Part shown: positions 11,236 to 13,894 of the stretch, piece by piece
Numbering within the stretch: the stretch's first letter is position 1
Layout: each line of letters begins with the position of its first letter
DNA from: Comamonadaceae bacterium
Lineage (GTDB): Bacteria > Pseudomonadota > Gammaproteobacteria > Burkholderiales > Burkholderiaceae_C
Direction: 5' to 3'
NCBI GenBank assembly: GCA_947381325.1
Contig: CANCUP010000008.1
Span: 1-39,082 of the forward strand
DNA length: 39,082 bases
Made by a program: the position numbers and the translations under genes
The notes under the pieces: model-generated
The model's database searches: none
What the model was told of the DNA's origin: nothing
Seen by the model: only the letters and a program-made list of their open reading frames with translations

Positions 11236-11285
11236 CGAAGGCTTGGTCAAGCAGCACACTCGGGTTGAACCATTTCAAGGACACC

Positions 11286-12032
11286 ATGTCACACGCACTG
11301 TTTCAATTTGGCGAACGCCTTCCAGGCTACAACTTGGCTGTGCTCAATGAGCGCGCTGTCAGAGCTGCCGCCGGCCTGTTATTTTTCATGGCCATCATCG
11401 CCTTCATGAACGCCATGCTGTTGGGAAACTTTCAACCCACGCGTGTATTTGTAATTGCATTTTTGATGGACTTCACCATCAGAATTTTCATCAACCCTAG
11501 GTTTTCACCCAGCCTGATTCTTGGGCAATGGATGGTGCGTCGGCAAGAACCGGAGTATGTGGGGGCACCTCAAAAAAGATTTGCTTGGGCGATTGGGTTC
11601 ACGCTGGCCTTGTTGATGCTTTACTTGATTGTTATCAAGGGCGTCATTGGCCCCATCAACATGCTGGTGTGTGGCACATGCCTGCTGCTGCTGTTCTTTG
11701 AATCTGCATTTGGCATTTGCATGGGTTGCAAGCTCTACGACATGGTCAGCAAAAATCAAGTTGAGCTCTGCCCTGGCAATGTGTGCAGCTACACACCCTC
11801 ACCCGGTGCTGGCGGTAGTCTGGGGCAGGCCATGGTGGTCTTGGTGTATGCGGGAGCATTGATGGGCGTGGCGAGTTGGGTCTACGGCCATCCCACAGCA
11901 AGTCGACTGGTGGTAGATCAGAACGCATCAACCCTTTCAGATCCTGCAGAGCAAGAGCGATGCAAGGTGCCAGAATTTGCTAAAAAAATTGGGCACGAGC
12001 AGCAATGGAAATTACACAACGGATGTCAATAA
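11286..12032 (+). CDS. DUF4395-domain membrane protein
   Basis: Starts MSHALFQFGERLPGYN; 'LNERAVRAAAGLLFF', 'RFSPSLILGQWMVRRQEPEYVGAPQKRFAW', 'GICMGCKLYDMV'. Confidence 0.75.
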   Translation: MSHALFQFGERLPGYNLAVLNERAVRAAAGLLFFMAIIAFMNAMLLGNFQPTRVFVIAFLMDFTIRIFINPRFSPSLILGQWMVRRQEPEYVGAPQKRFAWAIGFTLALLMLYLIVIKGVIGPINMLVCGTCLLLLFFESAFGICMGCKLYDMVSKNQVELCPGNVCSYTPSPGAGGSLGQAMVVLVYAGALMGVASWVYGHPTASRLVVDQNASTLSDPAEQERCKVPEFAKKIGHEQQWKLHNGCQ

Positions 12033-12043
12033 AAGGAGTTTCT

Positions 12044-12325
12044 ATGACCGTCAATCACATTCAAATCCGCGTCGAAAACATCAAATGTGGTGGCTGTGAA
12101 AAGTCAATCATCAAAGGACTTTCTGCCATCGAAGGCATTACACATATCTCGATCAACCGCGATCAACAGTTGGTCAGCGTAGACGCTGAAGACGCATTGC
12201 GTGACGCGCTTGTTGCAAAGCTCAAATCGATGGGCTATCCAGAGCATGGCAGCGTCAGCGGACTCGATGCCGGTCTTGCCAATGCCAAATCTTTTGTGAG
12301 TTGCGCCATTGGGCGTGTGTCATGA
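12044..12325 (+). CDS. Heavy-metal-associated (HMA) domain protein
   Basis: 'IQIRVENIKCGGCEKSIIKGLSAIEGI' with a CxxC metal-binding motif; RBS aaaaggag. Confidence 0.82.
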   Translation: MTVNHIQIRVENIKCGGCEKSIIKGLSAIEGITHISINRDQQLVSVDAEDALRDALVAKLKSMGYPEHGSVSGLDAGLANAKSFVSCAIGRVS

Positions 12326-12423: not shown

Positions 12424-12873
12424 ATGTCAGGTAAAACCGTTCAAGTTGAGTTGAGGCAACAAGCCAACTATCAATTTCTAATTTCGTTTGATGAAAACCT
12501 ACCCCCTCTTTTAGGGGACGAGCCTGCACCATTGGGCGAGGGCAAAGGGCCATCGCCCGTTCAGTTGCTGGCCGCTGCCGTGGGGAATTGCTTGAGCGAC
12601 TCCTTGTTTTTTGCCTTGCAAAAATTCAAGCAGTCTCCCGAGCCCATACACACCATCGTGCAAGCCGAGGTGGGGCGAAATGCCGAGGGCCGGATGCGTG
12701 TGTTGCGCATGACGGCCAAATTGCACTTAGGTGTCCAAGCGCACGAACTGCAACAACTTGACCGTGTCCTGGAACAGTTTGAGGCTTTCTGCACAGTGAG
12801 CCAAAGCGTGGGGCTGGGCATACCGATTCATACCCGTGTGCTGGACTCCCAAGGTGTTGTCCTCAAGGACTGA
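12424..12873 (+). CDS. OsmC family protein
   Basis: 'GPSPVQLLAAAVGNCLSDSLFFALQK' and 'AFCTVSQSVGLGIPI' with two conserved cysteines. Confidence 0.88.
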   Translation: MSGKTVQVELRQQANYQFLISFDENLPPLLGDEPAPLGEGKGPSPVQLLAAAVGNCLSDSLFFALQKFKQSPEPIHTIVQAEVGRNAEGRMRVLRMTAKLHLGVQAHELQQLDRVLEQFEAFCTVSQSVGLGIPIHTRVLDSQGVVLKD

Positions 12874-12903: not shown

Positions 12904-13021
12904 ATGAAAACCGCCCATGACCTCGTTGCACAAGCCAAATCTCAAACCCACGAAATTCCAATGGAGCAGGCTCGCTGCAGGCAAGCCCACCGCAAAGCCT
13001 GTCTTACCTGCCTTTGAGTGA
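12904..13021 (+). pseudogene. Rhodanese-like domain gene remnant with an internal deletion
   Basis: Frame 1 MKTAHDLVAQAKSQTHEIPMEQA (rhodanese N-terminus), then frame 2 LAAGKPTAKPVLPAFE* (rhodanese C-terminal tail); catalytic core absent. Confidence 0.72.
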
Positions 13022-13033
13022 GTCCGCCGCAGC

Positions 13034-13894
13034 ATGCAAACCCCAACCATCCAATCGTTCTTTGATCCAGCCACCTTCACCGTCACGCACGTGGTGTCAG
13101 ACCCAAGCACGCGGCGAGCCGTCATCATTGACAGCGTGCTGGATTTCGATGCCAAGTCAGGTCGCACCTCGCACATCAGCGCAGATCAGCTGATTGCCTA
13201 TGTGCGAAAGGCGGAGTTGACCGTGGATTGGATATTGGAGACACACGCCCACGCCGACCACCTCTCTGCGGCCATTTACTTGAAAGAAGAATTAGGCGGA
13301 CGCATCGCCATTGGGCGCGAGATATGTTCGGTGCAGACAACATTTAAAAAAGTGTTCAACGCGACCGACATGGACACCAGCGGCGCTGATTTCGATCGAC
13401 TGCTCGACGATGGTGAGGTGTTGCGTTTTGGCCATTTGGAACTGACGGCGATGCATACCCCCGGTCATACACCGGCGTGCATGACTTTCGTCTGCGGTTC
13501 AGACGCGTTTGTCGGTGACACGCTGTTCATGCCCGACTATGGCTCGGCGCGTTGTGACTTTCCGGGTGGCGATGCGGCCACTCTGTTTCAATCGATTCGA
13601 AAAATATTGGCACTCGACCCCTCCACGCGTCTGCACATGTGCCATGACTATCCACCTGCTGGCCGGGAGCCGATGTGGACCAGCAGCGTTGCTGCACAGC
13701 GCAAAAGCAATATCCATGTGCACGATGGCATCACGCAGTCCGACTTCGTCAGCATGCGCAAAGCGCGGGACAAAACCTTGGACATGCCTGTTTTGATCCT
13801 GCCATCGGTGCAGGTGAATGTGCGAGCGGGCAAACTGCCGCCGGCTGAAGACAATGGTGTGAGCTACTTGAAGGTTCCCCTGAACCTTCTTTGA
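13034..13894 (+). CDS. MBL-fold hydrolase, persulfide-dioxygenase-like (ETHE1/Blh)
   Basis: 'ILETHAHADHLSAAIYLKEELGGRIAIG', 'HTPGHTPACMTFV', 'GDTLFMPDYGSARCDFPGGDAATLFQSI', 'MCHDYPP'. Confidence 0.88.
   Translation: MQTPTIQSFFDPATFTVTHVVSDPSTRRAVIIDSVLDFDAKSGRTSHISADQLIAYVRKAELTVDWILETHAHADHLSAAIYLKEELGGRIAIGREICSVQTTFKKVFNATDMDTSGADFDRLLDDGEVLRFGHLELTAMHTPGHTPACMTFVCGSDAFVGDTLFMPDYGSARCDFPGGDAATLFQSIRKILALDPSTRLHMCHDYPPAGREPMWTSSVAAQRKSNIHVHDGITQSDFVSMRKARDKTLDMPVLILPSVQVNVRAGKLPPAEDNGVSYLKVPLNLL

Follow-up and report, generated by a model that had tools for sequence, protein, structure and literature searches.

The segment at positions 12904-13021 of the window, by which we mean the whole stretch of 39,082 nucleotides analysed, lies between an osmC gene and a persulfide dioxygenase gene, and raises the question of which gene once stood there, how it was lost and what this loss means for sulfur oxidation. 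The initial annotation had read it as a rhodanese gene with an internal deletion, and this reading is supported by comparison with two intact loci, L013 and L184, the latter in G480, a genome of the same genus. The features of the region, all on the + strand, are as follows.

11265..12032, +, DUF4395 membrane protein (PF14340), neighbour conserved in G480 (78% identical in L184)
12044..12325, +, heavy-metal-associated (HMA) domain protein (PF00403), neighbour conserved in G480 (86% identical in L184)
12424..12873, +, OsmC-family protein, intact, 149 aa (Pfam PF02566, E 5.1e-12; dN 0.08, dS 1.44 versus G480)
12904..12972, +, 5' rhodanese remnant, codons 1-23, MKTAHDLVAQAKSQTHEIPMEQA (74% amino acid identity to the N-terminus of the L013 rhodanese, same locus; syntenic with L184:5243)
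12904..13017, +, residual 37-aa frameshifted ORF across the junction, probably non-functional (list of open reading frames and sequence)
12969..12972, +, deletion junction, with the 4-bp GGCT assignable to either side (alignment to L013 and L184; conservation of Trp110 and Ala23; no repeat longer than this spans the endpoints in relatives)
12971..13021, +, 3' rhodanese remnant, codons 111-126 and stop, frame 2, LAAGKPTAKPVLPAFE (81% amino acid identity to the C-terminus of the L013 rhodanese)
13034..13894, +, type II persulfide dioxygenase-like MBL-fold protein, intact, 286 aa (Blh model; 4ysk/4ysl; dN 0.13, dS 1.7 versus G480)

Two ends of a rhodanese gene

In the 118 bp of the segment, the start and the end of a single-domain rhodanese gene are fused in different reading frames. 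Frame 1 from 12904 encodes MKTAHDLVAQAKSQTHEIPMEQA, and frame 2 from 12971 encodes LAAGKPTAKPVLPAFE, which is followed by a TGA stop at 13019-13021. These peptides had been proposed to be the N-terminus and the C-terminal tail of a rhodanese, and they matched the start (E 1.3e-9 within the fetched set) and the end (E 4.2e-7) of the same intact L013 gene, in the correct order and at the orthologous position. In the reverse search of the whole assembly, the intact L013 protein recovered the N-terminal remnant at C8:12904-12975. Neither remnant contains further stops or indels.

The subfamily concerned is a single-domain rhodanese (PF00581) resembling the rhodanese portion at the N-terminus of NCBIfam NF006444 (MoeB/rhodanese); the ends in the window match it, and their place in the cluster is that of the G480 and L013 orthologs. 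Unlike an intact single-domain rhodanese, the copy in the window has lost its entire core, including the active-site cysteine that a functional rhodanese carries, and its frame is broken. A PF00581 search of the whole genome gave no rhodanese domain match at 12904-13021. With ends homologous to an intact orthologous gene, no CKTSGR loop and a disrupted frame, the segment is a rhodanese pseudogene.

Intact loci and flanking genes

L013 carries the closest relative of the window dioxygenase in the genome collection (80% identical), and its gene order is SQR-like, OsmC, intact 126-codon rhodanese and dioxygenase. In G480, the L184 locus keeps the gene order of the window, with a full 126-codon rhodanese (PF00581, E 2.2e-21) between OsmC and the dioxygenase; the wider order comprises a BLUF-like gene, a Crp-type regulator, DUF4395, HMA, OsmC, rhodanese, dioxygenase and an ABC binding protein. 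When DNA-level orthologs of the osmC-dioxygenase stretch were sought among 60 relatives, only weak matches were obtained, and the G480 gene surfaced only with the intact L013 rhodanese protein as a genus-wide query. As the G480 match by sequence is accompanied by a shared wider gene order, this ortholog is identified by both sequence and synteny. Between OsmC and the rhodanese, L184 also contains a 112-aa ORF (L184:4828-5166) that matches nothing in Pfam or NCBIfam and likely carries a signal peptide; it is missing from the window and from L013, and looks like an insertion in G480.

The product of the downstream gene can be predicted, from its sequence and its MBL metal-binding motifs, to be a type II persulfide dioxygenase. 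It matches PDB 4ysk/4ysl with E 2.5e-110, versus E 2.6e-20 for the type I ETHE1 structure 4chl, and the THAHADH, HTPGH and GDTLF motifs are visible in its sequence. 4YSL is a type II persulfide dioxygenase (PMC11507549). The match to the NCBIfam Blh model (E 1.8e-113) covers the dioxygenase part only and stays under the whole-protein cut-off of that model. In intact relatives of the window, the rhodanese and dioxygenase genes represent the same pair of activities as the persulfide dioxygenase-rhodanese fusions BpPRF and CstB and as Blh (DUF442-ETHE1), but in the lineage of the window the genes are separate. A plasmid search returned distant dioxygenase matches only. Judging from the dN and dS values listed above, the OsmC and dioxygenase genes remain under purifying selection.

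Endpoints and age of the deletion

Compared with the intact gene, 381 - 118 = 263 bp are missing, corresponding to codons 24-110 and two bases, with the CKTSGR active-site loop included. This length is not divisible by three, so the frame breaks; the loss of the catalytic core and the out-of-frame junction, both noted initially, are thus confirmed relative to L013 and L184.

The junction in the window reads GAGCAGGCTCGCTGCA. The left endpoint corresponds to ..AAGGCTGAA.. in L013, and the right endpoint to ..TGGGTGGCG.. in L013 and ..TGGTTGGCT.. in G480. GGCT fits both codons 22-23 and codons 110-111, provided that Trp110 was encoded by TGG in the pre-deletion allele, which we infer from the relatives. 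Among 46 homologs, Ala23 is conserved in 42 and Trp110 in all 46. Given this invariance of Trp110, the right end before the deletion very probably read TGGCTCGCT, which places GGCT at both ends. By our own calculation, the chance of at least 4 bp of microhomology at a random junction is about 1.6%. Because the dioxygenases of the nearest intact loci are only about 80% identical (protein), the microhomology is deduced rather than read directly; it is consistent with both intact relatives, and is suggestive rather than proven.

For the 38 surviving codons, the comparison of the window with L013 gave a dN of 0.104 and a dS of 1.33, and the intact pair G480 and L013 gave a dN of 0.257 for the same codons. 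During a long free drift, the dN of a remnant would approach its dS. Since the dN of the remnant is far below its dS and its ends still resemble intact coding sequence, the deletion is recent relative to the split from L013 and G480. On these values, decay of the remnant has barely begun; given the small number of codons, they set a bound and not a date.

Origin of the junction

We consider it highly probable that the segment is a recent pseudogene of a 126-codon rhodanese that lost about 263 bp in one deletion, probably at GGCT. The ancestral state would have been a single-domain rhodanese gene flanked by osmC and by the gene for the type II persulfide dioxygenase. The comparison with the intact loci shows that the core was removed and the frame shifted; the deletion probably arose through slippage or illegitimate joining at the 4-bp GGCT direct repeat.

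Another explanation would be an assembly artefact or a minority allele, in which the population carries an intact rhodanese and a chimeric or rare read led the assembler to join the two ends. The assembly is indeed a fragmented draft of 242 contigs, with 88.9% completeness and 3.5% contamination, and an artefact equally predicts undecayed remnants. However, collapse of k-mers or overlaps requires a repeat of at least about 20 bp, whereas the longest string common to the regions near the endpoints is 6-7 bp in L013 and L184, is not located at the junction itself and is too short for an assembler overlap. The missing core was not found in any other contig of the assembly, and the junction lies well within the 39-kb contig. 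Assembly collapse therefore appears an unlikely source of the junction, and we assign the artefact or minority allele as a whole a low probability.

Frame 1 stays open beyond the junction and forms a 37-aa ORF with a new tail of 14 residues and a stop at 13015-13017, which ends 16 bases ahead of the dioxygenase start, so that coupling could survive. It is very unlikely that the rhodanese loss was selected, leaving a dioxygenase without its sulfurtransferase partner, a shifted thiosulfate/sulfite output and a remnant ORF kept as translational coupler for the dioxygenase. That this ORF is retained, whether to encode a functional small peptide or to serve the dioxygenase as a translational leader, is hardly credible, as the junction occurs in none of the relatives seen and a random frameshift could easily terminate near the same point. 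Lastly, although both peptides are short, a chance match of sequences unrelated to rhodanese is refuted by their finding the two ends of one intact gene, in the right order and at the orthologous position, and its probability is negligible. Under the recent deletion that we favour, the ORF, which has no catalytic residue, most likely just keeps the downstream gene readable.

Sulfur oxidation in the genome and the genus

In the SQR-rhodanese-persulfide dioxygenase pathway of heterotrophic bacteria, sulfane sulfur is produced by SQR and passed on to glutathione, a transfer that rhodanese accelerates, and the dioxygenase turns GSSH into sulfite; sulfite and sulfane sulfur then give thiosulfate, which is oxidised by Sox (PMC11507549; PMC9774590). 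Rhodanese is described as an accelerator of a reaction and not a required step (PMC11507549). Compared with this pathway, the window has an intact type II dioxygenase beside a dead rhodanese; the assembly contains at least part of soxB, and no SQR of the L013 or L166 type was found in it. The L166 query did not find an SQR in G480 either, but does find one in G274. The soxB part is a strong partial SoxB match (contig C213:1-858) that is cut by the contig edge, which makes it probable that the genome has a Sox system for thiosulfate oxidation. No other close dioxygenase was found in this genome.

A search for another rhodanese gave 12 PF00581 matches in the whole genome, so other rhodanese-domain proteins are present, none of them a close replacement. 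The best match, on C58, is 38% identical to the L013 rhodanese and lies near gpmA-like and secB-like genes, identified by eye from their translations. It was rejected as a replacement, since it reads as a housekeeping membrane rhodanese; no close paralog takes over. Elsewhere in the genome (contig C170:3630-5006), an 801-aa open frame has four rhodanese-domain matches; it is a possible multi-domain sulfurtransferase, perhaps like PDB 1yt8.

Close relatives of the window rhodanese occur in 14 of the 84 genomes of the genus, so its absence is common in this genus. In the 43 fetched rhodanese loci, a dioxygenase gene stands no further than about 1.5 kb from the rhodanese in at least 4 and an OsmC gene in at least 7, these counts being lower bounds because some loci run into contig ends. 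Six further genomes of the genus (L173-L176, L179 and L180) have a related rhodanese directly before OsmC, with no dioxygenase detected alongside, which suggests that the OsmC-rhodanese pair is the commoner association. With a dioxygenase neighbour in 4 of 43 loci, the initial statement that rhodanese and persulfide dioxygenase normally act together is too strong as far as gene arrangement is concerned.

Consequence of the loss

Oxidation of glutathione persulfide to sulfite probably continues in the cell, but without this enzyme to speed the transfer of sulfane sulfur to glutathione. A change in sulfite/thiosulfate output is plausible, but it would be small. This functional claim is weaker than first made, because linkage to the dioxygenase is found in a minority of the loci, close relatives of the rhodanese are restricted to a fraction of the genomes and the pathway can run without rhodanese. 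The locus represents an ordinary pseudogenisation that leaves the understanding of the pathway unchanged. It is a well-resolved case of a small accessory sulfur-oxidation gene lost by one short deletion with its neighbours intact, and annotators of this cluster should not presume the presence of a rhodanese.
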